Of a stretch of 64,000 nucleotides of DNA, positions 1,802 to 40,183 are shown in pieces. Source of the stretch: Chryseobacterium gleum (GTDB lineage: Bacteria; Bacteroidota; Bacteroidia; UBA10329); assembly GCA_945903645.1 (NCBI GenBank), contig CAMDOM010000006.1, positions 1 through 64,000 on the forward strand, given 5' to 3'. Both the position numbers and the translations under genes were made by a program. Within the stretch, counting starts at the first letter, position 1. The number at the start of each line of letters is the position of its first letter. Below the pieces are notes generated by a model. It saw only the letters and a program-made list of their open reading frames with translations, was not told the DNA's origin and made no database searches.

Positions 1802-1845
1802 TCAGTTCTTTGAAGTATCCCCGACTCAAATTCGATAATAGTCAA

Positions 1846-15726: not shown

Positions 15727-15742
15727 CGCCCAGCGGAGGGCG
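15727..15742 (+). other. GC-rich hairpin in the leader of the ECF operon
   Basis: CGCCC-AGCGGA-GGGCG forms a 5-bp GC stem 35 nt before the GTG start of the sigma gene. There is no T-run, so it is not a terminator. It may affect translation or be incidental. The rest of 15589-15777 shows no other clear element and no TAnnTTTG box near the start. Confidence 0.3.
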
Positions 15743-15777
15743 GCAACCCTTAATGCTCACCCTCGTCAAACTATAGC

Positions 15778-16353
15778 GTGCAACCAAACAAAGACAACCA
15801 TGACCATCTGATTGCAGGTTGTTTGAACAACGACCGAAGAAGTCAGCAACGCATGTATGAATTATTCTATGGAAAAATGCTAAGTGTGTGCATGAGATAT
15901 ACCCGCAATGACGACCAAGCCCAAGATTTGGTGCAGGAAGGTTTCATTAAGGTATTTGCGCATTTGCACAAATACAAGAACGATGGTTCGTTTGAAGGCT
16001 GGGTGCGCAGAATTTTTGTAAACAACGCCATCGACTCGTTTCGTAGAAAAAAACAAGACCACATTTTACCCGATAACGATTTTCACCTGCTCAACCTATC
16101 GGACGATACGGACGAGCACGCCTTTATGGACGAAGAGGTGAAACACATACAACCCGAAGATGTGGTGGCCGCTATGCAGCAACTTTCGCCTGCATATCAA
16201 ATGGTGTTCAACTTATATGTGATGGAGAAATATTCGCATCAAGAAATAGCAGATAAGCTGGACATCAACATAGGCACCTCTAAGTCCAACCTCTCTAAGG
16301 CGAGAGTGAACATGAAAAAGATTTTAAGCAAACAATTCACCGATTTCACGTGA
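15778..16353 (+). CDS. ECF-type RNA polymerase sigma factor
   Basis: Product of 191 residues. Sigma region 2 spans about 22-93, with DQAQDLVQEGFIKVF and FEGWVRRIFVNNAIDSFRR. Region 4 spans about 128-183, with AMQQLSPAYQMVFNLYVMEKYSHQEIADKL in pieces and a GTSKSNLSKAR recognition helix. It starts at GTG 15778; the next in-frame ATG (residue 26) would remove part of region 2.1, so GTG is preferred. It is the first gene of a coupled operon: its TGA overlaps the GTG of the next gene by 4 nt. No housekeeping -7 box is seen near the start, compatible with self-regulation from a sigma-specific promoter (inference). Confidence 0.92.
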   Translation: MQPNKDNHDHLIAGCLNNDRRSQQRMYELFYGKMLSVCMRYTRNDDQAQDLVQEGFIKVFAHLHKYKNDGSFEGWVRRIFVNNAIDSFRRKKQDHILPDNDFHLLNLSDDTDEHAFMDEEVKHIQPEDVVAAMQQLSPAYQMVFNLYVMEKYSHQEIADKLDINIGTSKSNLSKARVNMKKILSKQFTDFT

Positions 16354-17627
16354 AAGACACAAATTCCAACCCATTTGACGACCAGATAAGACAAACCCTC
16401 GAAGGATTTGAAATGCCTTACGATGCTGCTGCATGGACTCAATTTGAAGCCATGCTACCCGTGCAACCCACACCATCGGTAGGCAATGTTGACGGGCTAA
16501 AAGGTGCTGCTGCCTTGGCACTTATAGCTGCTGCAGGCGCAGTAGTTTGCATACTTTGGCCCGCCCAACCCAATTCTAAGGTTGCTACAGTGGCTGCGCA
16601 GCAGGAAATTGTAATGGAAGAGGCTGTTGCCCCAACGCCAAGCACTACAAATTCAACTCTGTTAACCAGCGAAGCGGAGCAATCTGAACCAACTAAAGCT
16701 GTAACAAGCATTGGTGGTGTTGATGCGAAAATGGCAGCAAATCAGGAGGAGCCCACTATTTCGGCTGTATCGGCCAATCCGCCCATAGCTACTGAACGTA
16801 CTGGAACATCAGAACGGAGCAACTCACCAGCACCTCAAAGAACTGAGAGCGCTCCGCAAGCAGAGGTCAGTTTGACGCTAGAAATGAGTGAAATATCAGT
16901 GTGTGAAGGCGAGCAAGTGAGCTTCACACCTGGAGCTTCTATTGGTGGCATGCGCTATTCATGGAACTTTGGCGATGGCGAGCAAAGTATCAAAAGCGCA
17001 CCAGTGAAGGCATTTGAAAATGCGGGAACTTATGATGTGAAATTGACGGCTACCAAAGAGGGTCGCTCGTGGGAACGCACCGAGACCATCGAAGTGAAAC
17101 CTGCTCCTGTGGCGCGCATCATTGGAATAGAAACCATGAAAGGAAATCTTCCTCTTGTTACACTGAAAGCAGAATTGCAAGACGGGGAAAGCTCCACATG
17201 GGCATTTGGCGATGGCCGTTTGGTTGCCGAATCGGAGGTAAAGCATTTATTCCGGAAAAGAGATACTGCTGTGGTCATCCTCACTGTTGCGAATGCGCAA
17301 GGCTGCACATCAAGCGAAAAAATGAACTTGCCGATGGCTAAGGATTTTAATTTGTTTGCCAATTCGGCTTTTACACCCAATGGCGATATAACCAATGAGG
17401 TGTTTTTGCCAAAAGCATTAGAAGCAATGGACTGCGCATTTGAGATGACTATTCGCGATGCAAAAGGAACAGTTTTGTTCCGCACATCGAGTGCAGATAA
17501 GCCTTGGGATGGTCGCGACAATTCTGGCACATTGCAACCCAAAGGATTGTATTTTTGGACGGTTGTGTTGAAAGACCCGATTGTAGTTGACCGAGTTTTT
17601 ACTGGTGATATTACATTGCTTCAATGA
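16350..17627 (+). CDS. Membrane-anchored PKD/CHU_C protein, candidate anti-sigma or sensor partner of the ECF factor
   Basis: Product of 425 residues from a GTG start overlapping the sigma gene by 4 nt. It has no cleavable signal peptide. Residues 1-50 are a cytoplasmic segment with the motif MPYDAAAWTQFEAML, of a kind often found after ECF genes in Bacteroidota. One transmembrane helix spans about 50-70. A Ser/Thr/Pro/Glu-rich linker follows to about 170, then PKD domains at about 172-249 (YSWNFGDG) and 252-328 (STWAFGDG). A complete CHU_C-like domain fills 336-425 (FTPNGD, PWDGRD). The layout is that of a transmembrane anti-sigma factor whose sensory part resembles T9SS adhesins. Anti-sigma activity is an inference from position and topology; no known anti-sigma domain is recognised. 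Confidence 0.7.
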   Translation: MKDTNSNPFDDQIRQTLEGFEMPYDAAAWTQFEAMLPVQPTPSVGNVDGLKGAAALALIAAAGAVVCILWPAQPNSKVATVAAQQEIVMEEAVAPTPSTTNSTLLTSEAEQSEPTKAVTSIGGVDAKMAANQEEPTISAVSANPPIATERTGTSERSNSPAPQRTESAPQAEVSLTLEMSEISVCEGEQVSFTPGASIGGMRYSWNFGDGEQSIKSAPVKAFENAGTYDVKLTATKEGRSWERTETIEVKPAPVARIIGIETMKGNLPLVTLKAELQDGESSTWAFGDGRLVAESEVKHLFRKRDTAVVILTVANAQGCTSSEKMNLPMAKDFNLFANSAFTPNGDITNEVFLPKALEAMDCAFEMTIRDAKGTVLFRTSSADKPWDGRDNSGTLQPKGLYFWTVVLKDPIVVDRVFTGDITLLQ

Positions 17628-19897
17628 TGCTGAAACGCGGTAGTCGAAACCCCATTATAGATATGAAACAGCTTTATACTTTTTATTCGGACTGGCCTAC
17701 GATAAAACATGTTGCCTTGCTTTTAATAGCAATGATGTTTGGCGGGGTAGTGCAAGCGCAAACAGTGGATGTTGGTCCTGCCGATACCTCAGTTTGCAAC
17801 GGAACCCCAATTACGCTTACTGCTATTACTACGGGCGTGGGCACCAACCCAACGTTTACAAACTTGAATTTTAATACGGATGATTTCCATAGTGGAGTGA
17901 TAGATATTGGGTTCAATTTTGATTATTTCGGCAATACCTACAACCAATGCGTAGTATCTACCAATGGTTATATCACTTTCGATTTGGGAACAGCAGGCAC
18001 TGGCTCACCGTGGAGTATTAATGCCGCAAGCCCCACTCCTGGAGTGCCGGATAACGCCATTATGTTTCCGTGGCAGGACATTAATCCAGGAGTTGCATCT
18101 GGTGGAACAAACTCAGCCGATTGTGGCGATGGAACATTCATTGTCGATTTTATTGATATTGCCATGTTTAGCTGCACCGATTTGCTTTTTACCATGCAAG
18201 TTGTGCTTTTTGAGAATACGAATATTATTGAAACCTACATTACCGACAAGCCCATTTGCGCTACGTGGAATGCAGGTGCTGCTATTCATGGATTGGAAAA
18301 TGCTGGTGGTACTCAATCGGTTATTGTGCCGGGAAGAAATTTTCCAACACAATGGGCTACGAACAACGATGCCGTGCGGTTTACTCCCAATGGCTCAGGT
18401 AGCTATACGGTGGATACGTCTATTCCTTTTAATCCCATTCCTGTTGGAAGTGAAAATATTGTTTGGACAAATGCTGCTGGAACTGTTCTGGGCAACACAG
18501 CGTCTATCACTGTAACGCCTGTTTTGGCTACTTGGTACTATTGCACGTTTCAGTCGGCATGTTCGGCCATCACAGTGCGTGACTCCATTCTTGTTACGTT
18601 GGGTAATGTTGATATAACTACTCTGAAAGAAGATGTTTCTTGCTTTGGTTTTGCAGATGGAACTATTGGTGTGGATCCAGTTGGCAGTAATTTTCCAGTT
18701 ACGGTTGAGTTGCTAGATGGTAATGGAGCTGTAGTAGATATGATGACCAATGTGAATGGTGCCGTCACTTTTGCTGGCCTAGTGGCAGGAGATTATACCG
18801 CTACAGTAATTGATGCTGTGGGTTGCGAAACCAGTTTGAATGTCACGCTTACCCAACCGACTCAACTTGCAGTGACTGCTGGCCATATAGACATCCTTTG
18901 CACTGGAGATAATAATGGAATTGCGTATGCTTTGGCAAGTGGTGGAACTATACCGTATGCATTGCAGTGGAGCGACCAACTTTTGCAAAACACAGATACG
19001 ATTATCAACCTTGGCCCTGGGCCATATAGAATTACCGTTACCGACTTTTTGGGATGTGTGGTAGATACTACCATGCTAGTTGTTCAGCCGCTTCCTCTGA
19101 GCATCAGCTTTGTTGCTGGGGCGGATACCTGCCTTCGTCAAGATGGTGCAATACGCACGCAAACACAGGGCGGAACCAAGCCTTACACCTACATCTGGAA
19201 TTCGATTACGGATTCTGCATTTTATGAGGTAAACGACCTTGAAAACTGGAATTATATTTCGCAACTACCCACAGGTGATTATACCGTGGTTGTGGTAGAC
19301 TCGAATGCGTGCGAAATTGAACGAACGGCAAATGTGCCTATGATAGTGCCGCCCATGGCAGCTTTCAGCAGCAGGTCGAAACCTGAAGAACTCACCAATC
19401 CTGTGGTAGAGTTTTTTAACGAATCGCAAGCGTCAGAAACGTATGAATGGCACTTTGGCGATGGCGACATCAGCAATGCGTTGCATCCCGAACATGCCTA
19501 CGAATCGCCAGGAGCTTTCCTTGTAATGTTGATTGCGTACAACGAGCCACGTTACGGATGCAGCGATACTACTTTCCGCTATATGCAGGTGGATCCATTA
19601 TTCACTTTTTATGTACCAAACAGTTTTACGCCTGATGGCGATGGGTTGAATGATGAGTTTAAACCCGTTGGGGAAAACTTTGAATATGAGTCCTACAATC
19701 TTCAGATTTATGACCGTTGGGGTGGATTGCTGTGGCAAACCGACAACCCGAATCGTGGGTGGAATGGCACAGATCCAGGAAGTTTAGAAGAGGTGAAAAA
19801 CGGAAATTACATCTACATCTTCACCATGAAGAAGTTTAACACCTTCGAACCAAAGGTAATTACAGGTTCGGTAAACCTTTATCGCAACAGGGACTAA
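17624..19897 (+). CDS. SprB-repeat/PKD adhesin with CHU_C (T9SS type B) C-terminus
   Basis: Product of 757 residues. The ATG at 17624 overlaps the previous stop by 4 nt (ATGATG). An in-frame ATG at 17663 would give a more usual signal peptide, so the exact start is open. The signal peptide ends at VVQAQ (residue 46). Domains in order: a Cys-containing beta module of about 210 residues (FNFDYFGNTYNQ, VSTNGYITFD, then FENTNIIETYI) shared with the next gene; an Ig-like segment; three SprB-type repeats (each ending like GDYTATVIDAVGC); one PKD (YEWHFGDG); and CHU_C (FTPDGDGLNDEF, YDRWGGL). It is probably secreted by type IX secretion to the cell surface. The TAATG junction couples it to the next adhesin. 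Confidence 0.85.
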   Translation: MMLKRGSRNPIIDMKQLYTFYSDWPTIKHVALLLIAMMFGGVVQAQTVDVGPADTSVCNGTPITLTAITTGVGTNPTFTNLNFNTDDFHSGVIDIGFNFDYFGNTYNQCVVSTNGYITFDLGTAGTGSPWSINAASPTPGVPDNAIMFPWQDINPGVASGGTNSADCGDGTFIVDFIDIAMFSCTDLLFTMQVVLFENTNIIETYITDKPICATWNAGAAIHGLENAGGTQSVIVPGRNFPTQWATNNDAVRFTPNGSGSYTVDTSIPFNPIPVGSENIVWTNAAGTVLGNTASITVTPVLATWYYCTFQSACSAITVRDSILVTLGNVDITTLKEDVSCFGFADGTIGVDPVGSNFPVTVELLDGNGAVVDMMTNVNGAVTFAGLVAGDYTATVIDAVGCETSLNVTLTQPTQLAVTAGHIDILCTGDNNGIAYALASGGTIPYALQWSDQLLQNTDTIINLGPGPYRITVTDFLGCVVDTTMLVVQPLPLSISFVAGADTCLRQDGAIRTQTQGGTKPYTYIWNSITDSAFYEVNDLENWNYISQLPTGDYTVVVVDSNACEIERTANVPMIVPPMAAFSSRSKPEELTNPVVEFFNESQASETYEWHFGDGDISNALHPEHAYESPGAFLVMLIAYNEPRYGCSDTTFRYMQVDPLFTFYVPNSFTPDGDGLNDEFKPVGENFEYESYNLQIYDRWGGLLWQTDNPNRGWNGTDPGSLEEVKNGNYIYIFTMKKFNTFEPKVITGSVNLYRNRD

Positions 19898-22800
19898 TGA
19901 TTTTGAGGATAATAATATTTCAACTTGTTGTCTTTCTCGCAATTGCTACAATCCCAACAATTGGGTTTGCTCAGCCAGGGTGCCCATTCGTAGACGCTGG
20001 CAATAACCAAAGTGTCAATTGTAATGTGAACTGTGTGAATCTTCTGGCTGATTATTTAGAGACAGGGGCCACTACGAGCTACACAGTTGAGTCTGTACCA
20101 TACGCTCCACCAGTTCCATACACAGGCGGGACCCAGCAGTTTATTAATACGGATGACGTTTGGGGAAGTGTAATCAATTTGCCCTTCAATTTTTGTTTTT
20201 ATGGTACTCAATATAACCAAGTGGTTATTGGCGCAAATGGCCTAATAACCTTCGATGTTTCAGTTGCAGGAACGGGTTGTGCATGGGCCTATACTGCTTC
20301 CATACCATCGGCTACACTATATACAAACAGTATTATGGGCGCATACCATGATATTGACCCAACATTTGGGGGAACGATTAGTTACTTTATACAGGGAGCA
20401 GCACCATGTAGAATCTTTGGCGTGAGTTTTAATGATATTCCCCATTTTGATTGCAATTGTCAGGGCGGAATTTTTGGTGGAACTTGCAGTCGCACAACCC
20501 AGCAAATAGTAATATATGAAACTACTAACATTATTGAAGTATATCTCGCTCAAAAGGAAACATGCAGCAGCTGGAATAGTGGAAACGCTGTGGTTGGCAT
20601 ACAGAATGCAACCGGTTCTGCAGGCGTAACTCCACCAGGGCGTAATACTGGACCTTGGTCTGCTTCCAATGAAGGTTGGCGGTTTTTGCCAAGTGGTGTG
20701 CCTACTTATCAGATAAATTGGTACGAAGCTGGTGCACTTATTGGCACAGGCGCAACTATTAACGTTTGTCCAAGTGCCACTACCACATATACAAGTGAAG
20801 CCATTTATACAGCTTGCGATGGTAACGTTGTGACCGTGACCGATCAAGTAATGGTTACCCAGAATAGTTCAATGACTGCAAGTGTCACACCTTCTAGTTC
20901 CACCTTATGTCCAGGAGAATCGGTTGTGCTAACTGCTTCAAGTTCTAATGCGGGCGTAACGTATTCTTGGTCACCTGCGACAGGGCTTTCTGGAACAACG
21001 GGAGCAACTGTTACCGCCACACCATTGGTTCCTACCGTTTACACCGTTACTGCTGATGACGGTTTGTGCACAGCCAGTGCCAATGCAACGATTGACATGG
21101 GCACTATAAGCGTTAATACTTCGGTAACTCCGGTAGGTTGTGGTGGAAATAACGGGACGGCAACAGCCACCGCAGTAGGTGCCATAAACCCAATATCTTA
21201 TGCTTGGACAACAACACCAGTTCAAACTACTCAAACCGCTACAGGATTGTCGATTGGCAACTATGATGTCACTGTAACAGATGGTTCTGGGTGTTCCGCT
21301 ACCGAGACTGTGACCGTGGTAACAGGAAACAATTCAATTTCCGCGCCTACTATGACATCTACGGATGCAATTTGCACTGCTAGTAATGGAACTGCAACTG
21401 CTACTCCTGTTAATGGCGCAGCACCATTTGACTATGCTTGGAATACTGTTCCTGTTCAAACAGGACAAACAGCTACAGGCCTTACACCAGGCGTATATCA
21501 AGTTACTTTGACAGATGCGAGCGGTTGTGTAATTACCAATAACGTAACTGTGGGCCTTACGCAAACCGTTATCACCGCAACTATTACGGTATCAACTGAT
21601 GCATCATGTGCTGGTGTTTGCGATGGAACCGCGACCGTTTCTGCTCAAAATGGAACAGCGCCTTATCTTATTGTCTGGGATGACCCAACCAATCAAACCA
21701 CACTTTTTGCGAATGGCCTGTGTGCTGGAAATTATAATGTAGGCGTTATGGATGCCAATGGCTGTGTTGTTTCGGCACAAACAACTATAAATGAGCCATC
21801 TGCTGTGCAAGCAAATGCCACAATGACACGCCAATCTGATTGCGGGCAGCCCAATGGAGAAGCCGATGTAGCAGCCAACGGAGGTAATGTTGCTGCAGAT
21901 TACAGTTATTCGTGGGATTCAACACCGATTCAGAATAGTGCAGCTGCAATAGGGCTATTGCCGGGTAGTTATGATGTGACAGTAACCGATGATAATGGTT
22001 GTTCAGTGGTTGCTTCAGTATTAGTCACTTCAACACCAAGCTTTACAGCCGGGATTAATGTTTTTTCTAACGCCCTATGTTTTAATTCCTGTGATGGAAC
22101 CGCAAGTGTAAATGTGGACAACATTGCTGTTGCCCCTTTAGCGTATTCATGGAATACAGTTCCGCCTCAAAACACTGCCATAGCGTCCGCTCTTTGCGCA
22201 GGAGACTATGACGTTACGGTAACGGATGATTTGGGATGTGTAGCAACCACTGCGGTTACTATTAGCGAACCAACGCAACTTACTGTTGCAGCATCTGTCG
22301 ATTTATCACTAATCTGCATAGGCGGAACAGCACAATTGAGCGCTTCTGCCAATGGAGGAACAACACCAATTGCAGGCTATCAATGGAATGCGGTGCCTGC
22401 GGATGCATCGCTTGTGGCCTCGAATCAAAATCCTACTGTTATGCCCGTTTCCACAAATACTACCTATTCTGTGGTAGCAACGAATTCAAATGGTTGTATT
22501 TCTGCTGCATCGAATACTACGGTTGCCCTGCGCGCTCCGTTAACTTTGGATGTGATTCGTCCGTTGGCTGGGCCAGACACTAGCATTTGCTATGGTGATT
22601 TGGCAATATTGAATCTTGTTGCTACAGGCGGTGATGGAAATTACACCTTCTTGCAATCTCCAAATCCAACGCCATTAGCTTTACCGCTTACTGTTCAGCC
22701 TCTTGTTACCACGGTTTATGATTTTGTAGTGATTGACGGGTGCACTACTCCACCAGCCACAGCTACAAGCACCATCACGGTTAATCCGCTTCCAGTTGTC

Positions 22801-23577
22801 CAGTTTTCTGTAGATGACCCATTTGGTTGCGATGAGCACAGCGCAGTGTTTACTGATATGAGTATTCCTGCAGCGCAGCAATGGTTGTGGGATTTTGGCG
22901 ATGCTAATTCAGGAGCCAATTCTGCTACTCAATCTATTGCTAACCATACATTTTCAGGACCCGGTGTGTATGATATTGCATTACAGGTAATAACCGCAGC
23001 AGGTTGTATGGGCGATACAATTTTCCCTCAGTTTGTAGAGGTGTTTCAACTTCCACAAGCTAATTTCTCGGTTGATCCCACAATTACAAATTTGCTTGAT
23101 GCGACTTTTCATTTCACAGATTTATCCTCTGGAATGGTCAATTCTTGGGATTGGACATTTGGTGATGGCGCGCAAGATAATGTGATGAATCCAGTGCATA
23201 ACTATACTGACACTGGCACATTTGTTATAACGCTTATCGTTACCACGGATGATAATTGCTCTGACTTTGTAAGGCAGTCGGTGGAGGTTGAGCCCGATTT
23301 CATGTTTTATATTCCCAACACATTTACCCCGAACGAGGATGGAAAGAACGATTTCTTCCGTCCTTATGGCGAAGGTGTTCTATGGGAAACCTTATCGATG
23401 GTTATATACGATCGTTGGGGCGAGCAAATATTCTTTACTGCCAGTATCGACAATCCTTGGGACGGAAGCTACCAAGGAGCGCAAGTTGAGTCTGCAGTTT
23501 ACGTTTACACCATTACCATAGTAGACGCCAACTATGACAGCCATACCTATTATGGCAATGTCAATTTGGTGCGATAG
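19897..23577 (+). CDS. Large SprB-repeat/PKD adhesin with CHU_C (T9SS type B) C-terminus
   Basis: Product of 1226 residues; its ATG overlaps the previous TAA by one base. The signal peptide ends near residue 26 (IGFAQ). It shares the N-terminal Cys-containing module with the preceding adhesin (FNFCFYGTQYNQ, GANGLITFD, YETTNIIEVYL). About five SprB-like repeats follow, with recurring YDVTVTD.GC endings. Then come an Ig-like domain, an RPLAGPDTSIC module, two PKDs (LWDFGDA, DWTFGDG) and CHU_C (FTPNEDGKNDFF, YDRWGEQIFF). The last 400 residues closely parallel the adhesin at 23711, indicating duplication. Likely a surface adhesin for gliding or attachment; the ligand is unknown. Confidence 0.86.
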   Translation: MILRIIIFQLVVFLAIATIPTIGFAQPGCPFVDAGNNQSVNCNVNCVNLLADYLETGATTSYTVESVPYAPPVPYTGGTQQFINTDDVWGSVINLPFNFCFYGTQYNQVVIGANGLITFDVSVAGTGCAWAYTASIPSATLYTNSIMGAYHDIDPTFGGTISYFIQGAAPCRIFGVSFNDIPHFDCNCQGGIFGGTCSRTTQQIVIYETTNIIEVYLAQKETCSSWNSGNAVVGIQNATGSAGVTPPGRNTGPWSASNEGWRFLPSGVPTYQINWYEAGALIGTGATINVCPSATTTYTSEAIYTACDGNVVTVTDQVMVTQNSSMTASVTPSSSTLCPGESVVLTASSSNAGVTYSWSPATGLSGTTGATVTATPLVPTVYTVTADDGLCTASANATIDMGTISVNTSVTPVGCGGNNGTATATAVGAINPISYAWTTTPVQTTQTATGLSIGNYDVTVTDGSGCSATETVTVVTGNNSISAPTMTSTDAICTASNGTATATPVNGAAPFDYAWNTVPVQTGQTATGLTPGVYQVTLTDASGCVITNNVTVGLTQTVITATITVSTDASCAGVCDGTATVSAQNGTAPYLIVWDDPTNQTTLFANGLCAGNYNVGVMDANGCVVSAQTTINEPSAVQANATMTRQSDCGQPNGEADVAANGGNVAADYSYSWDSTPIQNSAAAIGLLPGSYDVTVTDDNGCSVVASVLVTSTPSFTAGINVFSNALCFNSCDGTASVNVDNIAVAPLAYSWNTVPPQNTAIASALCAGDYDVTVTDDLGCVATTAVTISEPTQLTVAASVDLSLICIGGTAQLSASANGGTTPIAGYQWNAVPADASLVASNQNPTVMPVSTNTTYSVVATNSNGCISAASNTTVALRAPLTLDVIRPLAGPDTSICYGDLAILNLVATGGDGNYTFLQSPNPTPLALPLTVQPLVTTVYDFVVIDGCTTPPATATSTITVNPLPVVQFSVDDPFGCDEHSAVFTDMSIPAAQQWLWDFGDANSGANSATQSIANHTFSGPGVYDIALQVITAAGCMGDTIFPQFVEVFQLPQANFSVDPTITNLLDATFHFTDLSSGMVNSWDWTFGDGAQDNVMNPVHNYTDTGTFVITLIVTTDDNCSDFVRQSVEVEPDFMFYIPNTFTPNEDGKNDFFRPYGEGVLWETLSMVIYDRWGEQIFFTASIDNPWDGSYQGAQVESAVYVYTITIVDANYDSHTYYGNVNLVR

Positions 23578-23597
23578 ATAACGCAAAACTGTAGAGC

Positions 23598-23714
23598 ATG
23601 AAGTATAGATTACTACTAATTTTCATGTCCTCTGGGATTTTTTCGGCAGGAGCGCAGAATGTGTTATCGCCTAATTTGACTTTACAAACTCAATTTGATT
23701 CTACAAAAAAATGA
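23598..23714 (+). CDS. Small secreted peptide, 38 residues
   Basis: A complete short ORF (ATG 23598, TGA 23712-23714) fits between two giant adhesins. It is 20 bp after the upstream stop, and its TGA overlaps the next ATG by 4 nt (ATGA). The product has a clear signal peptide (MKYRLLLIFMSSGIF, cleavage near AGAQ, residue 20), leaving a mature peptide of about 18 residues ending in Lys-Lys. The coupling at both ends and the signal peptide argue for a real gene. It could instead be the 5' remnant of a lost adhesin gene. The stop sits directly behind a run of seven A. Confidence 0.55.
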   Translation: MKYRLLLIFMSSGIFSAGAQNVLSPNLTLQTQFDSTKK

Positions 23715-26700
23715 GATTGAATCTCTTTTTTTTAGGCATAATTTTCTGGGCGGTTGTTGGTACAAATCAGGGTTGGGCACAATGTACCATCAGTTCCATG
23801 ACGGCAGCTATATCCAATTGCTACACATCGGCCCAAGGATTTCTGCAGTATGATGTAGACGGAACAATTACCTATTCCAGTGCACCGGTCACAGGGACGC
23901 TCACGGTCACCAATTGTTTTGGTCAGCAACAGATATTTAGTCCACCATTTGGAACGAGTCAGAATTTTTCATTTACTGGGTTACCCCAAGATGGTAACGA
24001 CTGCGATTTTGTGGCCGTGTTTAGTGCCGATGTGGTGTGTACGGAAACTGCAACCGTTAGCGCCCCGCCAACCATCACTTTTTTTAGTTCAGGATGTGTA
24101 ATAGGATCTGGAGAGGTAACGGGTACCATTGAGTTTTTAAATCCACCAACTACTGGAACGCTGGTGGTAAGTATAGACGATGGAACGAATACGGTTCAAA
24201 CCACCATTCTACCGCCATTTGTAAGTCCTGAAGCGTGGACTGTAACGGGCCTCGACCCAGCAGCAGCCACATATATTATCACGTTCTATTTCTCAGATTT
24301 TGCAGGCTGCTCTCAAACCCAATCGATGTTGTGTGGATGTGCTGCAGAGGCTGGTTCTACAACCGCAGCAGTTAATGGAGTCAATTCAACAGCTCCATTG
24401 CTTTGCGAGAACGATGTATTGACCGTAGTTACAAACAACAATTTTGTTTTTCCAGACGATGAAGGGCCAATAGGTGGATTTGCCTACCAACCCGCATTGG
24501 TGTACTTGGTGTTCAACTGTCCCCCAACACCAGGAGTATTCCCAGGAAGCGACCCATGTTTTGTTGGAGTAATTCCAATTGAGGAAAACGTGGGAGATAT
24601 TAACGACCCAAACTCACTTGTGGCGCAAGTTCCTCCAGGAACGTTTACCAACGGGCAGATATTTCTGGCACCGATTACGCTATACCACTTCGACCCTATA
24701 ACTCCCAATTATATTGTGAATTCCAACTGTTGGGATATTGGAACAGTAACTCCCGTCACCTATTTGCAACCCATCACTTCTACTGTTACTCCCGATTGTC
24801 AGGCCAACACAGTTACGGTTGATTTGGTGGGTGGAATGCCTGCCAATAATGGAAGCGTTTTCACAGGCTCGAATCTGTTGCCTGCAAACGCATCGTTTGT
24901 CAATACAACCGTTCCAAATAATGGTTCAATCGTGATTGACGGATTGGCAAATGGCGATATGTATTCCTTCGATGTTACAGATGCATCAGGCTGTACGCAT
25001 CAAATTTCAGGCGGTCCGTTTGTAGCACTTCCAATTGCTGATGAGGGCGTTGATGCCACAAGTTGTGCCCTATCTTTTGTACTTCAACCCACGCCAAGCT
25101 ACGGCATAGGAACGTGGTCTGGAGGTCCTATTGGCACCACCTTCACTCCAAATACCACTACCGCCAATGCTACGGTTACCGTGCCAGCAGATGGAGTTTA
25201 TACCTTTACATGGACGGAGAATAACGGAGCTGGATGCACGGCCACAAACACAGTAGATATTACCTTCTCGCAACTGAGCATTCCAGCTGTAGTTACAGGA
25301 GCTACCTGCGGTATAAGCGATGGACAAATTGTGGTAGCACCTCAAGGTGGCAGTGCACCTTATGATTACTTGTGGACTTCGGGAGGCACGAACCCTGTAG
25401 AATCAAATTTGCCAGCAGGGCCAGTTACAGTTACGGTTACCGATGCAACTGGATGTAGCCTCGACTCTACGTTTATGATTACTATGCCATCGGCATTCAC
25501 ATTTACCACCGCATTTACAGATGTAACATGCTTTGGTACCTGCGATGGAACAGCCTCTGTAACGGCTAATGGCGTGGGTCCATATACTTATGTATGGACA
25601 CCAAATTTGAGCAATATAGACGCAGCTGCAGGGCTTTGCGCTGGTGTGTATGAAGTGGAGATAACGGAGAATAATGATTGTGTTGAAATAGCTACGATTA
25701 CTGTTGGAAGCCCAACGCTGGTTAATGCACAACTGAGTACCGATTTAGCTACTGTTTGTATTGGGCAATCTGCCACACTCGATGCAGCTATAAGCGGAGG
25801 CACCCCGAACTACGGTAATTTCTCGTGGACAAGTGTTCCTGCAGACCCAACCCTTGTGGTCACAAACCAAAACCCAGTGGTTTCGCCATTAGTTACCACC
25901 ACCTACACCTTCACATCAGAAGACAGCAATGGATGTCCATCGGCTCCAAAGGACATTATTATCACCGTAAGACAACCATTAACGCTTGATGTAACTCGCC
26001 CATTGGCAGGTCCCGATACATCTATTTGCCCCTACGATTTTGCAACAATCGACCTTATTGCCGGAGGTGGAGATGGTAATTACTCCATTTTCCTTCTTCC
26101 CGACATGGTCAATCCAATAGCACTTCCATTGGATACCCAACCTGCGGTAACCACCACGTTTAATTTCATGGTTACTGATGGATGCACCACACCTGCCGCC
26201 TTTGCCAGTAGCACGGTTACAATTCTACCACTTCCATTAGTTGATTTTAGCGCAGATGACCAAGATGGATGCGATGTGCATACCGTGCAATTTACCGACC
26301 TAACTCAACCTGCGTCAACGCAATGGAGTTGGAACTTTGGAGATGCAAATTCGAATGCCAACACCGCTACTGTGGCCAATCCATTCCATGAGTTTTCAGG
26401 GTCAGGAGTCTATGATATTAGCCTAACCGCTTGGACGGCACAAGGCTGTACTAGCGACACCACCATGGTTGCGTTTATTGAGGTGTATCCATTACCTAGC
26501 GCCATATTTGATTTGGACCCAAGTTTAACCACACTACTTAATGCCAATGTGAAATTCACCGATGGTTCGTTTGCTGATATTGCCACTTGGGCTTGGAATT
26601 TTGGCGATGGAGCAACTGGGGCACAATCAAATCCACGGCATCAGTACAGCGATACAGGGACTTTTGTGATAACTTTAACAGTAACCACCATCAACGGCTG

Positions 26701-27019
26701 CACCGATGTAACCACCCGCGAATTGGTTATAGAACCTGACTTTACGTTCTACATTCCCAATGCATTTACGCCAAACAACGACCGCGACAACGAAGGCTTT
26801 ATACCTTACGGAGAAGGAGTAGATTGGTCTACTTTGCAGCTTTCCATTTATACCCGTTGGGGCGAGCTCATTTACTACACAGCTGATATAGATAGCCCTT
26901 GGGATGGATCATACAAAGGAGCGCAAGTTGACTCGGGTGTATTTGTTTATCGGATTGAAATTACTGACCTAAAAGGTGGACTTCATGAATATACTGGCCA
27001 CGTTACTTTGGTGAGATAG
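23711..27019 (+). CDS. Large SprB-repeat/PKD adhesin with CHU_C (T9SS type B) C-terminus
   Basis: Product of 1102 residues with a signal peptide ending near residue 24 (GWAQC). The N-terminal half has two related Ig-like segments (GTLTVTNCFG; GTLVVSIDDG) and Cys-rich linkers. Two SprB-like repeats follow (CGISDGQIVVAPQGGSAPYDY; CFGTCDGTASVTANGVGPY). It then carries the same C-terminal series as the adhesin ending at 23577: Ig-like, RPLAGPDTSIC module, two PKDs (SWNFGDA, AWNFGDG) and CHU_C (FTPNNDRDNEGF, YTRWGELIYY). It is the last gene of the ECF-led operon; no terminator is obvious after it, but a new promoter begins at 27055. Confidence 0.86.
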   Translation: MRLNLFFLGIIFWAVVGTNQGWAQCTISSMTAAISNCYTSAQGFLQYDVDGTITYSSAPVTGTLTVTNCFGQQQIFSPPFGTSQNFSFTGLPQDGNDCDFVAVFSADVVCTETATVSAPPTITFFSSGCVIGSGEVTGTIEFLNPPTTGTLVVSIDDGTNTVQTTILPPFVSPEAWTVTGLDPAAATYIITFYFSDFAGCSQTQSMLCGCAAEAGSTTAAVNGVNSTAPLLCENDVLTVVTNNNFVFPDDEGPIGGFAYQPALVYLVFNCPPTPGVFPGSDPCFVGVIPIEENVGDINDPNSLVAQVPPGTFTNGQIFLAPITLYHFDPITPNYIVNSNCWDIGTVTPVTYLQPITSTVTPDCQANTVTVDLVGGMPANNGSVFTGSNLLPANASFVNTTVPNNGSIVIDGLANGDMYSFDVTDASGCTHQISGGPFVALPIADEGVDATSCALSFVLQPTPSYGIGTWSGGPIGTTFTPNTTTANATVTVPADGVYTFTWTENNGAGCTATNTVDITFSQLSIPAVVTGATCGISDGQIVVAPQGGSAPYDYLWTSGGTNPVESNLPAGPVTVTVTDATGCSLDSTFMITMPSAFTFTTAFTDVTCFGTCDGTASVTANGVGPYTYVWTPNLSNIDAAAGLCAGVYEVEITENNDCVEIATITVGSPTLVNAQLSTDLATVCIGQSATLDAAISGGTPNYGNFSWTSVPADPTLVVTNQNPVVSPLVTTTYTFTSEDSNGCPSAPKDIIITVRQPLTLDVTRPLAGPDTSICPYDFATIDLIAGGGDGNYSIFLLPDMVNPIALPLDTQPAVTTTFNFMVTDGCTTPAAFASSTVTILPLPLVDFSADDQDGCDVHTVQFTDLTQPASTQWSWNFGDANSNANTATVANPFHEFSGSGVYDISLTAWTAQGCTSDTTMVAFIEVYPLPSAIFDLDPSLTTLLNANVKFTDGSFADIATWAWNFGDGATGAQSNPRHQYSDTGTFVITLTVTTINGCTDVTTRELVIEPDFTFYIPNAFTPNNDRDNEGFIPYGEGVDWSTLQLSIYTRWGELIYYTADIDSPWDGSYKGAQVDSGVFVYRIEITDLKGGLHEYTGHVTLVR

Positions 27020-27054: not shown

Positions 27055-27087
27055 TTTGCTCAAATTCAATTCATTCTATTATCTTCG
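27055..27087 (+). promoter_or_regulatory. Bacteroidota promoter for the collagen-like gene
   Basis: TTTG at 27055-27058 and TATCTTCG at 27080-27087 are separated by 21 nt, a good -33/-7 arrangement. Transcription would start near 27093, 17 nt before the ATG at 27110, which excludes the longer reading frame from 27056. Confidence 0.6.
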
Positions 27088-27109
27088 ACCCCTTAACAAC
27101 CCGATTCAC

Positions 27110-28690
27110 ATGACCTTTAATTCACAATCAGCAAGTACAGCCGCTTTAACTGTCCTTCTTGCTACTGGTTCATTTTTCGCAAGTGCACAAACGGACAATG
27201 TCGGTATTGGTACTTCAACTCCGCATCCAAACGCAATTTTGGATGTTTCTTCATCATCTAAGGGTTTCTTGGCGCCACGTTTGAACACGTTGCAGCGTAC
27301 TTTGATGAATCCGTTAGCAACAGCGCAAGGTTTGTTGGTGTATGATACTGACCTTAGTGAGTTCTGCTATTGGGATGGTGCATTGTGGGTATGCTATCCT
27401 GCAAGTGGATTTGGAGGTGGTGGAACAACTGGCCCAACTGGCCCTGCTGGAGCTAATGGTCCTGCTGGAGCTAATGGTCCTGCTGGTCCAACCGGTGCTG
27501 CGGGAGTAGCTGGTCCTGCCGGACCTGCTGGCCCTGCTGGTGCTGCTGGCCCTACAGGTCCAAATGGAGCAAATGGATTACCTGGCCCTGCTGGAGCTGA
27601 TGGATTAAATGGAATTGATGGTGCTACAGGCCCAACGGGTCCTGCAGGAGGTCCAGTAGGGCCAACTGGGCCAACTGGAGCTGATGGTATTAATGGAATT
27701 GACGGAGTTGATGGTGCTGTAGGTCCCGCGGGTCCAGCAGGTGCAGCGGGTGCAACTGGCCCCGCAGGTGTGGCAGGTCCAGCTGGTGCTGCAGGGGCTA
27801 TTGGACCAACGGGTCCGACAGGAACTAACGGTACGAATGGCGCAAATGGTACTCCTGGTGCTGTTGGCCCTGCAGGTCCAACTGGTGCGACAGGCCCAGT
27901 GGGTTGTGGAACAGTGAATCTACTATTGAAATCAGCTGGTTCATCAGCAGTTTGCAGTCAGGTTTTTGATAACGGAACTAACGTAGGCATCTTCACAAAC
28001 ACGCCTGCATACCGTTTGCATGTGACCTCCAATTTCGCCAACGACTATCTTGGGGCCTTTGAGAACGGAGATGCTACTGGCTCGGCTCTTCTTGGAAGTG
28101 TGACGGGAACATTTAATGCATTAGGTGGAGCTACAACAAATGCCACAGGTTTGGGTGTGTATGGTGTTCATCTCTCCGCAACTGGTGCGGGGCTTGGTGT
28201 TTACGGGACCAGTAATAGCTCGGATGCTACTGGTGTTTTGGGTCAGGTGCCAACAACTGGAGCTTGGCTAGGTTATGGAGGTTATTTTACTGGTGGCTTG
28301 GGCTATGAAGATGGTCTGTATAATCTTTCGGACAGCCGTGTAAAAAAGAATGTATTGCCGCTAAATAGTGCATTGTCAAAATTGCTTCAGCTTAATGGTT
28401 ATACCTATCAGTATAGTGATGCTGCAGGAATGAATAAAAATGACAAGACGTACATTGGCTTCGTAGCTCAAGAGGTGAAATCAATTTTCCCAGAAGCTGT
28501 TGCTGAAAAATTGAGAAAAAGCACGAATGAAGTGGCTGGGAAATCTGGAGATGCAAGCGCATTTGGAAAAGAGACCTACAATGTTGTGGATTATGTTTCT
28601 TTGATTCCAGTGCTTGTGGAAGCCATAAAGGAACAGGAAGCCCGCATAAAAGGATTAGAGGCTACTGTGGAAGAACTAAAACGGAAATAG
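27110..28690 (+). CDS. Collagen-like surface protein with S74 intramolecular chaperone domain
   Basis: Product of 526 residues from ATG 27110. A signal peptide ends near SASAQ (residue 27). [18 protein letters not shown] module follows, related to the two copies in the 11925 protein. A collagen-like tract of about 52 Gly-X-Y triplets (residues 108-264) is rich in GPA, GPT and GAA, with a single one-residue interruption. A beta-rich stalk with LGVYG repeats leads to a C-terminal peptidase S74 domain (SDSRVKKNV with the expected cleavage Ser, then GFVAQEV and FPEAV). A charged helix closes the protein. S74 domains trimerise fibres and cut themselves off, so a trimeric collagen-like surface fibre is likely (inference). 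Confidence 0.88.
27431..27901 (+). repeat. Gly-X-Y coding repeat (collagen-like)
   Basis: Tandem 9-nt units code for Gly-X-Y triplets, about 24 before and 28 after a one-codon interruption near 27647. Local exact repeats, for example the duplicated unit coding for GPAGAN near 27440-27480, make the tract prone to slippage and copy-number change. Confidence 0.85.
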
Positions 28691-37264: not shown

Positions 37265-40183
37265 ATGAACATGAAAGTTACAGTTTGGAGCGCATTTACA
37301 GCGCTAACGTTGCTACTCGGAATTACCACAACCAACGCGCAATGTCCGGACTGCGTTATAGACGCCCAATGCGGGGTGGGCATCAACCCAATAGCCCCAA
37401 CCCTTTGCCCTGCGGCTTTGCCAAACGGCATCCAAGGCCAACCCTACGACCAAAACCTTACCTTCTTTATGCCGCGCGATTTTACAGATGCGGGCTCGGG
37501 TCAGTCGGTTACGCTCAATTCTATTACTGTGACCCAAATTACGGGAATGCCGCAAGGGCTTTCATTTACTTGCAACAACCCTGGTTGTGCATACACCGTA
37601 ACCAGCGACCCACTTACCCAGCGTGGCTGCGTGAAAATATGCGGCACTCCATTGGTGCCCGGCAACTACAACGTGTTGGTATCCGTTGTTGCTAACGTGA
37701 ATACGCCCATCGGCATCATCAATCAGCCCAGCGGATTTACCATTCCATTAACGATAGAGCCTGCACCAGGAGGCAACTGCTGTTTTAGCTACAACCCACC
37801 ATCGGCTTGCGGTGAAATGGATGTGACCTACAGCGCGCTATTCAATTTCGAGCCGTTGCAACCCACAGAATATTCATGGGATTTTGGTGGAGGTAATACT
37901 AGCACGGTACAAAACCCACCAGTGCAGAGCTATACCGCTGCTGGTGATTATATAACTGCGCTTACTACAACGGTTTACAATTATGTAGTTACCGATGCCA
38001 CCTTCACAGCCACAGGCGCAAACTGGTGTGGCGATATTGAAGAGATTTCGTTCATTGGTGTATGTCAAGGTGCTCCAGACCCCTATTTTACTTTTTCAAA
38101 TGGCAATCTAAACTCCACTTCGACAGTGGTGAGTAATAATCTGAACGCTACGTGGAGCAATCTCAATTTGGTGTTGGAGAATAACGTGTTTACCCTCCAG
38201 TTCTTTGATGACGATGGCACGTCTGCCGATGACAATCTTGGAATTATCTCGCAAAACGTTACCGCTCCGGGCACATTTAGCTTTAGCACTTTTGTGAATA
38301 ATGCTCAGGAGGGTTTTGGCACTGTAACCGTGGCTTTGGTGGTAGATACGGTGTATCAAACCCAAGATACGGTGTCTGTTTATCCAGTACCTGCAGTACC
38401 TGCAATCACCTTTACACCCGGCCCAGCAGTATGTACGGGAGATTCTATATTGGTTTCAGGACCTGTTGGCCCATATCAATACCAATGGCTGCGCAGCGAA
38501 ACGTTTGAATCTGATTCTATCGCCATCTGGGTAAATCAAACCGATTATTACAGCCTTCGCATCATCGACACTACGTATTTCTGTCAATCGCAAACAGACT
38601 CATTCCTAGTGCAGGTGTTGCCTTTCCCCAATCTTCCTGTCATTACCTACAATAATGCTACTGCAGAATTGGAGATTACCAACAACTCGTCAAACTATGA
38701 TGTAACATGGACAGAGGATGGCGTAATTCTTCCGAATGAAACAGGAAATACGCTCGGCAATTTGGCTTCTAGCGGCCCATTTGCCGCCACATTTACAAAC
38801 GATGGAGGTTGTTTTGCCACTTCGCTTCCGTTCTCGTTGTGCTTGCCCGGCAGCACCGATGCGTTTGAAACAGACACGGTATGTTGCGGAGACACGCTAA
38901 ACCTTAGCGCTTCTGGGTTTACATTGAACCCGTTCTCTACCATTGCATGGGCCATTACGCCTGAGGCAGATGGGCCAGTAACGAACCAGCAAGAAGTGGA
39001 TGCGGCAAATGCTGCAGGACATGTGTTGGGCATTAGCAGCTTAGGTGCTGCTACAACCTTTGTTCGGAGCTGTCCAACCTTGGCAGATAGCACTTTAAAC
39101 GGTGACTTTTGGGTAACTCCTTTTGCCATCGAAGACCCGAATGTTGTTCCATTTACCTACGATACTTTGGTGGGTTGCCGTCCGCGTGCAGAAATTTGTC
39201 CTGTGTTGAGTGCCGCAGATGATGGCTGGGAATTGTTTCCTATGATATTCACGTTCCCTGACGGCTCGCAGTTAAATGCAAACGATGCTATCGCATTTGG
39301 TCTTCCTATCAATCAACAATTGATTGATTTTGCGGGAGGTTTGCCTTGCATTAACCTTACTAGCCTTTTTGCAGGAAATCCAAATGGATTGTGGAGCGTT
39401 ACAATTACCAACACGGGCACCACCGCCTTGACTATGGTTGTGCCCGACTTTGTTGCCATCAACTATGCCGATACCTGCACGTTAATTACAGAAGATGAAG
39501 TGTACTTGATTACGGGGGTTACGCTAACAGCAAATCCGGGAGCAACAGTTTCCTACGATTTTTACATTCCACCATTGCCAAGTGGATTCCCATTGGTTAA
39601 TGATAATTGTGCAGCATTTGGAGACCCAAAGTTGATAACCTTCGCCAATTGCTATCCTGAACTTACCAGCAGCCTAACGGTTACCGGAACGGTGCAGAAC
39701 TCCACAAGTGGCATTTCACCCAATGTTTATATTGACGTGAGTGTAATTGGTGGAACAACGCCTTATAGCTACTTATGGGCAGATGGACCAACTACCGAAG
39801 ACCGCTTCAACCTAGCGCCAGGCACGTATTCCATTACTGTTACAGACGCGCTTGGATTGGTTGGAACAGGTTCTTGGACCGTTACTGGCCCGGGAGTTGG
39901 CATTGCTGACGACCTCGAATTGCACGGCTTTGGTTTGGGAAGTGCTATTCCAAATCCATTTAATCAAAGCACAACAATCGTGTTCGAAAGTGCTAAAACA
40001 GGCAACTATACCTTTGAAGTGCGGGACCTTGCTGGAAGGCAAGTAGCGAGCATGGAGGTGAAAGCAAGTGCTGGCGGCAATCGCATTTTGTTTGATGGAA
40101 CATCTCTTGGCTCTGGAGTGTATACCTACTCGTTGGGCAATGGCAAAACCACCTTGACCAGCCGAATGATGGTGAGTCATTGA
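37265..40183 (+). CDS. Secreted PKD-domain protein with T9SS type A sorting domain
   Basis: Product of 972 residues. A signal peptide ends near TTNAQ (residue 26). The N-terminal domain is Cys-rich (CPDCVIDAQCG) and followed by a putative Ig-like module (GLSFTCNNPGC) and a PKD (YSWDFGGGNTS). The middle contains further beta-sandwich segments, including a proprotein-convertase P-like stretch (CINLTSLFAGNPNGLWSVTITN). An SprB-like repeat (IGGTTPYSYLWADG) precedes the C-terminal type A sorting domain (IPNPFNQSTTIVF, YTFEVRDLAGRQV, GVYTYSL, ending RMMVSH). It is the only type A substrate here; the others carry CHU_C. Surface adhesin or matrix protein by inference. Confidence 0.85.
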   Translation: MNMKVTVWSAFTALTLLLGITTTNAQCPDCVIDAQCGVGINPIAPTLCPAALPNGIQGQPYDQNLTFFMPRDFTDAGSGQSVTLNSITVTQITGMPQGLSFTCNNPGCAYTVTSDPLTQRGCVKICGTPLVPGNYNVLVSVVANVNTPIGIINQPSGFTIPLTIEPAPGGNCCFSYNPPSACGEMDVTYSALFNFEPLQPTEYSWDFGGGNTSTVQNPPVQSYTAAGDYITALTTTVYNYVVTDATFTATGANWCGDIEEISFIGVCQGAPDPYFTFSNGNLNSTSTVVSNNLNATWSNLNLVLENNVFTLQFFDDDGTSADDNLGIISQNVTAPGTFSFSTFVNNAQEGFGTVTVALVVDTVYQTQDTVSVYPVPAVPAITFTPGPAVCTGDSILVSGPVGPYQYQWLRSETFESDSIAIWVNQTDYYSLRIIDTTYFCQSQTDSFLVQVLPFPNLPVITYNNATAELEITNNSSNYDVTWTEDGVILPNETGNTLGNLASSGPFAATFTNDGGCFATSLPFSLCLPGSTDAFETDTVCCGDTLNLSASGFTLNPFSTIAWAITPEADGPVTNQQEVDAANAAGHVLGISSLGAATTFVRSCPTLADSTLNGDFWVTPFAIEDPNVVPFTYDTLVGCRPRAEICPVLSAADDGWELFPMIFTFPDGSQLNANDAIAFGLPINQQLIDFAGGLPCINLTSLFAGNPNGLWSVTITNTGTTALTMVVPDFVAINYADTCTLITEDEVYLITGVTLTANPGATVSYDFYIPPLPSGFPLVNDNCAAFGDPKLITFANCYPELTSSLTVTGTVQNSTSGISPNVYIDVSVIGGTTPYSYLWADGPTTEDRFNLAPGTYSITVTDALGLVGTGSWTVTGPGVGIADDLELHGFGLGSAIPNPFNQSTTIVFESAKTGNYTFEVRDLAGRQVASMEVKASAGGNRILFDGTSLGSGVYTYSLGNGKTTLTSRMMVSH

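Follow-up and report, generated by a model that had tools for sequence, protein, structure and literature searches.

A predicted membrane-anchored anti-sigma factor with a type-B T9SS sorting domain in an ECF sigma factor operon of Chryseobacterium gleum

The export state of a secretion apparatus can be coupled to transcription through an anti-sigma factor, as exemplified by FlgM, a soluble anti-sigma factor that is itself exported via the flagellar apparatus. The protein analyzed here would share that coupling with FlgM, but it differs in being membrane-anchored and in carrying the sorting domain of another secretion system. Several described systems come closer to it in one respect or another. 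Dma proteins are presented as trans-envelope anti-sigma factors with an outer-membrane barrel (PMC13088901). The PorA / PorXY-SigP system of Porphyromonas gingivalis controls T9SS genes through an ECF sigma factor, with a T9SS-CTD protein acting upstream of it, but PorA, which is restricted to Porphyromonas, is exported with a signal peptide, acts through a proposed two-component route and has neither an anti-sigma module nor a TM anchor (PMC7712824). The SM6 promoters of F. psychrophilum are ECF-type, have a CGT -10 element and drive T9SS genes together with one ECF/anti-sigma pair, but no sigma factor was assigned to them (PMC9723704). Finally, SprB-SprF and other type-B CTD and PorP-SprF pairs involve the same CTD and receptor families, and type-B CTDs need their cognate PorP/SprF shuttle for export and for holding at the surface; in those pairs the CTD is found on exported adhesins, whereas here it is found on a predicted inner-membrane regulator (PMC12618676, PMC9143113).

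In this work we analyze an operon of Chryseobacterium gleum in which an ECF sigma factor is followed by such a regulator and by three adhesins. The system may bear on the matching of adhesin synthesis to type IX export in gliding and adhesive Bacteroidota, for which it would offer a link from machinery to sigma factor within one protein. It would also add a secretion signal to the barrels newly described as ends of trans-envelope anti-sigma factors, and it predicts a function for PorP/SprF contacts. A literature search, with most subscription papers outside its reach, returned no anti-sigma factor with a type-B CTD, a PorP barrel or a PorP-like peptide.

Operon organization and architecture of the second protein

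The window is a stretch of 64,000 nucleotides (contig CAMDOM010000006.1 of assembly GCA_945903645.1); the features of the operon are collected in Table 1. A preliminary description, based on the sequence alone, had reported a tight run of six genes ending at position 27019, and re-checking of the open reading frames (ORF) and their junctions reproduced it. The sigma gene and the second gene overlap by 4 nt (GTGA), the second and third by 4 nt (ATGA), and the third and fourth have 1 nt in common (TAATG); a 20-bp gap then leads to a 38-codon ORF whose stop overlaps the ATG of the last adhesin gene by 4 nt (ATGA). Some details of that description require adjustment. The ORFs do number six, but the fifth is likely to be merely a remnant, since an intact exported protein of ~146 aa occupies its position in three relatives (L078, L079 and L082). 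The three CHU_C adhesins are present (CHU_C at 3e-15, 3e-14 and 2e-11, plus SprB and PKD repeats; Pfam/NCBIfam), although "giant" is a generous term for proteins of their length. The run is real, but the operon probably extends beyond its reported end, because the collagen-like gene follows after 36 bp and a similar gene lies 3′ of the adhesins in L079, making it a probable seventh member.

Table 1. Predicted features of the sigma factor operon, in window coordinates
Feature	Position	Strand	Details
Predicted autoregulatory sigma-type promoter	15742..15768	+	-35 GGCAACC 15742-15748; -10 CGTCA 15764-15768
ECF sigma factor	15778..16353	+	191 aa, GTG start; Sigma70_r2 1.5e-16, r4_2 3.5e-13 (Pfam)
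Putative membrane anti-sigma factor with type-B T9SS sorting domain	16350..17627	+	425 aa
Putative anti-sigma module, residues 1-40	16350..16469	+	Short helices 8-17, 26-35; near-invariant Trp29
Single TM helix, residues ~52-70	16503..16559	+	Hydropathy 2.3; N-in by charge
Disordered periplasmic tether, residues 71-175	16560..16874	+	pLDDT 35-57
Two PKD domains, residues 176-328	16875..17333	+	PKD_4 1.7e-20, two stretches; pLDDT mostly above 90
CHU_C (type-B CTD), residues 336-425	17355..17624	+	Pfam CHU_C 5.7e-9
CHU_C adhesin 1	17624..19897	+	757 aa; SprB repeats, PKD, type-B CTD
CHU_C adhesin 2	19897..23577	+	1226 aa
38-aa ORF	23598..23714	+	Signal peptide plus 18 aa; likely remnant
CHU_C adhesin 3	23711..27019	+	1102 aa
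Collagen-like exported protein, endosialidase-chaperone domain	27056..28690	+	Collagen 4e-20, Peptidase_S74 4e-16 (Pfam)

The sigma factor has regions 2 and 4 only, as befits an ECF-type protein. An Rfam scan of 14-29 kb of the window gave no match, and scans of the operon for consensus sigma-70 promoters and terminators stayed near chance level. No PorP/SprF gene was seen adjoining the operon; the source genome encodes six of them, plus SprA.

For the second protein, domain searches, charge distribution and AlphaFold2 modeling all agree with the topology given in the preliminary description, namely a cytoplasmic N-terminus, one membrane helix, two PKD domains and a CHU_C domain. The N-terminus is hydrophilic over ~50 aa and, across 56 homologues, K+R is more frequent before the TM helix (2.45) than after it (1.07), which suggests that the N-terminus lies in the cytoplasm. 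In the AlphaFold2 model built on these homologues, pLDDT remains below 60 for residues ~41-170 and is mostly 92-98 from residue 175 to the end. The terminal domain scores 36.4 bits against a Pfam CHU_C cut-off of 27 and carries the FTPNGDG motif with DG replaced by DI; its TIGR04131 score of 30 bits falls just under the cut-off of 35, while that model matches 25 of 26 homologues (E<=0.01). The protein thus ends as a type-B substrate does, but it lacks the Sec signal peptide with which such a substrate begins, which sets it apart from ordinary T9SS substrates. The sequence contradicts an exported adhesin of the usual kind, with its signal peptide cleaved off, which the preliminary description had named as refuting its proposal, and this alternative can be excluded.

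The C-terminal domain appears to be a dedicated, length-constrained part of the protein, as judged from its own branch in the CTD tree and from its near-constant distance to the membrane. Among the 56 homologues the linker sequence varies freely, yet the distance from TM helix to CTD has a median of 269.5 aa (sd 12, range 220-296). Such a fixed reach fits a domain whose contact lies a defined distance away, presumably at the outer membrane. In a tree based on only 91 columns, with some long rows, a branch with a value of 98 separates the 56 anti-sigma CTDs from 47 adhesin and three class-d CTDs (see below); capture of the CTD from neighboring adhesins is ruled out by this arrangement.

The preliminary description had also proposed a structure prediction of the N-terminus together with the sigma factor. 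It was carried out on a relative (L080) in which sigma factor and partner are in frame, so that reading through the natural stop yields a fusion (AlphaFold2, 143 rows). The module helices were modeled with confidence (pLDDT ~91-95, pTM 0.74), and the best Foldseek match of the fusion was the sigma factor of SigW-RsiW (TMt 0.64), RNAP-bound sigma factors scoring lower (~0.33-0.44). The model lends modest support to a contact between sigma factor and module, because the helices already reach pLDDT ~87 without the sigma factor, the linker itself forces proximity and the model carries no interface score. A Class I (ASDI) anti-sigma domain was considered and rejected, since this class has a four-helix domain (PMC7406223) and two short helices precede the TM helix here. 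Taken with the homology described below, the second protein is well supported, by inference, as an anti-sigma factor.

Distribution of the pair, sister systems and promoter motif

A profile of the second protein was searched over 295 relatives, yielding counts that are lower bounds. Full-length matches were obtained in at least 56 of them, in 14 families, with one per genome among the matches listed. In the 30 loci found by this profile alone, which are those of the 56 left out of profile building, a sigma gene lies immediately upstream in every case. Conversely, a search started from the sigma factor recovered the pair in each of the eight remaining genus genomes and in many from other families; eight of the nine genus genomes have this type of sigma factor as one copy, and the ninth gives two matches. 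Among the 56 loci, 28 have a CHU_C gene among the three that come next; in some of the remainder, the contig stops at this point. The recurrence of the same pair in so many genomes and families excludes chance, and the comparison indicates that the joining of a sorting-type end to an anti-sigma topology is a genuine, ancient and widespread feature. In a phylum-wide sample of 395 genomes, only three gave a full-length match, so the pair appears to be confined to certain lineages.

In other relatives, the gene 3′ of the sigma factor encodes a protein with the same layout and a different C-terminus, and four classes can be told apart. Class a partners end in an outer-membrane barrel (OMP_b-brl_2 in 23 of 32), and class b partners, the type present in the window, in PKD-PKD-CHU_C. 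Class c partners are short proteins with an FGDMIDPKKGFIKKTxED-like peptide. Class d partners, seen in eight genomes, all of family f11, consist of four or five tandem N-terminal modules, a TM helix and a PorP/SprF barrel (PF11751 at 2.8e-23, 1.9e-19 and 1.7e-16); their gene is followed at -4 or -1 nt by one for a CHU_C protein of ~216 aa, and the one example read to its end has a lipoprotein-type N-terminus. With residues 1-48 of class b as its sole input, an HMM (threshold E<=0.01) matched the N-termini of 27 of 30 class a partners, of all 13 short partners (eight of class c and five others) and of all three class d partners, against one of 712 decoys and one of 920 shuffled sequences. These matches indicate homology of the N-terminal module among partners whose C-termini are unrelated, Dma-like barrel proteins included.

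Classes c and d point to a tie between this module and type-B export. The gene following class c encodes PorP/SprF in six of the first eight loci, and in ten loci of a larger set, some of which are the same places again. A PorP segment, LTFGDMIDPRRGFVYxTxE, is mirrored by the class c peptide (FGDMIDP..GF), with three anti-sigma C-termini among the matches of a PorP HMM (4e-7, 9e-6 and 5e-4). In a tree of the sigma factors, those of class b (55 of 56), class c and class d form one group (branch value 96) with no barrel-type sigma factor inside it. On this evidence, a single sigma clade appears to be served by three kinds of anti-sigma factor, ending in a CHU_C signal, in the receptor or in a partial copy of the receptor. 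Because the sister systems carry PorP/SprF or a PorP-like peptide where the window type carries CHU_C, a link to type-B T9SS export becomes much more likely. No CHU_C or PorP gene was found near class-a loci; this contrast is weaker than it appears, as such genes may just be scarcer in those lineages.

The same comparison defines the relation to Dma. The window system shares with Dma (PMC13088901) an adjoining ECF sigma factor, an N-terminal anti-sigma region, one TM helix, a long disordered tether and a C-terminal domain destined for the outer membrane; it differs in ending in PKD-PKD-CHU_C, whereas Dma ends in a beta-barrel. The likeness of the module is drawn through the barrel-type relatives analyzed here. 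A partner sigma factor of group ECF21 is a further trait of the Dma family. We rejected identity with Dma: the second protein would work like a trans-envelope anti-sigma factor, but the defining barrel is absent. Furthermore, sigma factors of the window type form a clade apart from most barrel-type ones and have their own promoter motif.

This motif, RGCAACCY-N14-CGTYA, is found at a fixed distance before the sigma GTG in nine of nine genus genomes. Only 9 nt lie between the end of the predicted -10 element and the GTG, which makes a leaderless or nearly leaderless operon mRNA probable. The window contains a single match, and the operon holds the only occurrence of the strict motif in the source genome. 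A looser version (CAACC-type -35, spacing of 13-17 nt, and CGTTA, CGTCA or CGTCT) precedes the sigma gene in 48 of 56 class b loci (0.7 expected), eight of eight true class c, two of three class d and none of 30 class a loci. It also precedes four of six class c PorP genes (0.03 expected) and six genes downstream of class-b pairs (0.12 expected), and none of 44 genes downstream in class a. Since the motif was derived in the genus and then loosened, the class-b rows of the genus are not independent of its derivation; those of other families, the downstream genes and the absence from class a are. A wider regulon was sought with the strict motif and set aside: totals in the genus were near those of a reversed control pattern, and the claim is limited to the operon.

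Candidate mechanism and alternative explanations

We favor, at somewhat better than even probability, a reading in which the second protein is an anti-sigma factor, anchored in the membrane, and mimics an export partner so as to gauge export by the type-B T9SS route. Its cytoplasmic N-terminus of ~40 residues would bind and occlude the sigma factor, as homology and the fusion model suggest, while the single helix would anchor it in the inner membrane. The tether and the two PKD domains would carry the type-B CTD across the periplasm to the export machinery of the outer membrane, where its partner would most likely be a PorP/SprF shuttle or the SprA translocon. Because its end imitates the sorting domain of the operon's own adhesins, anti-sigma factor and adhesins would compete for one partner, and sigma activity would follow free type-B export capacity. 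Released by proteolysis or pull, the sigma factor would transcribe its own operon (sigma factor, anti-sigma factor and adhesins) from the CAACC-N-CGTYA promoter. This gives shape to the secretion checkpoint of the preliminary description, of which the anti-sigma topology with a sorting-type end has held and gained sister variants built on PorP/SprF, while T9SS contact and sigma release are still conjectural. Sensing of the T9SS by the second protein is, in sum, likely but unproven. Against it, an anchored CTD could jam the translocon or escape recognition, and we know of no precedent for a type-B CTD anchored in the inner membrane. The weak TIGR04131 score of the window's CTD, the roughly half of class b loci in which no CHU_C adhesin follows, and the lack of a PorP/SprF gene adjoining the operon also weigh against it.

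A broader generalization, which we put forward tentatively and at slightly less than even probability, is that the anti-sigma factors of this clade end in one half of the pair formed by type-B CTD and PorP/SprF, the signal and peptide variants providing secretion-capacity feedback by product mimicry, with the free binding site setting sigma activity. In classes b and c the C-terminus would imitate a product of its own operon (the adhesin CTD and PorP, respectively) and feed back through competition, and class d would pair the receptor with what may be its ligand. Given the defined promoter motif and the three natural variants, the matching of adhesin synthesis to export is testable in any cultivable carrier.

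Three other explanations were weighed. The protein may instead be a surface receptor akin to Dma, its CTD passing through SprA to rest on a PorP/SprF barrel at the cell surface; an anti-sigma factor so placed would extend across both membranes and signal something external (adhesion, ligand or force) in place of export load. The near-constant tether length would suit this arrangement, which nevertheless needs translocation while the N-terminus stays in the inner membrane; to our knowledge there is no precedent for a translocated protein so retained. Its N-terminal module and layout are also those of barrel-type anti-sigma factors, described as reaching from outer membrane to cytosol (PMC13088901), and type-B CTDs do remain surface-anchored via PorP/SprF (PMC9143113). 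On balance we regard this explanation as unlikely, though deserving of consideration.

It is quite improbable, in our assessment, that the PKD and CHU_C domains are simply sturdy periplasmic beta-domains of a general envelope sensor, responding to stress, glycans or force without T9SS contact. PKD domains are common in surface proteins (the best Foldseek matches of those studied here are fragments of the Aureispira grappling-hook protein) and the CTD in the window is a borderline TIGR04131 match, but sister systems make independent use of the CHU_C receptor or of its peptide, and adhesin and PorP genes either belong to the operon or follow the same promoter motif. That the protein is no anti-sigma factor at all, but an adhesin-like or scaffold protein with an uncleaved signal anchor that happens to share an operon with the sigma factor, is very hard to credit: operon neighbors need not interact and sigma binding is itself deduced, but the ~40-aa module with its near-invariant Trp is common to partners of this sigma family with unrelated ends, is encoded adjoining a sigma factor wherever looked for, and in family f11 occurs as four or five tandem copies.

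Anti-sigma-like partners carrying PorP/SprF sequence

In three loci of relatives (L089, L091 and L095), the N-terminal module, a putative anti-sigma segment of about 40 residues, is repeated four or five times in tandem and followed by a transmembrane segment and a barrel of the PorP/SprF family, the receptor of CHU_C-type T9SS signals; a small CHU_C protein is encoded after each. The peptide FGDMIDPxxGFVxxTxE of the short anti-sigma-like proteins, which extend beyond the three tabulated, is a copy of a conserved PorP/SprF segment. Their genes usually have PorP/SprF as downstream neighbour, often with the same sigma-type promoter motif.

Genes following related sigma factors at L054:6547-7413 and L055:3161-4021 also begin with this module, which is fused there to an apparent FecR/STN-type periplasmic domain, judging the sequence by eye.

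Features of the window and of related loci
Feature	Location	Strand	Character
Tandem-module anti-sigma-like protein	L089:9121-11046	minus	PorP/SprF barrel end
Tandem-module anti-sigma-like protein	L091:12647-14539	minus	PorP/SprF barrel end
Tandem-module anti-sigma-like protein	L095:11507-13270	minus	PorP/SprF barrel end
Short anti-sigma-like protein	L093:2550-3266		PorP/SprF-like peptide
Short anti-sigma-like protein	L105:2717-3460		PorP/SprF-like peptide
Short anti-sigma-like protein	L104:14507-15250	minus	PorP/SprF-like peptide
38-aa ORF	window 23598-23714		between two adhesin genes
Exported protein	window 27056-28690		collagen-like repeats, endosialidase-chaperone (Peptidase_S74) end
Additional T9SS cargo	window 1810-3753		type-B CTD
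Additional T9SS cargo	window 37265-40183		type-A CTD

Start of the sigma mRNA

At window 15764-15778 the predicted -10 element ends 9 nt upstream of the GTG start of the sigma gene, a spacing constant throughout the genus, so the sigma transcript probably has little or no leader.

Genes among and beyond the adhesins

The 38-aa ORF looks like a remnant of an exported protein of about 146 aa, of which L078, L079 and L082 have an intact copy. The collagen-like gene lies 36 bp beyond the adhesin genes, and a related one is likewise downstream of adhesins in L079.
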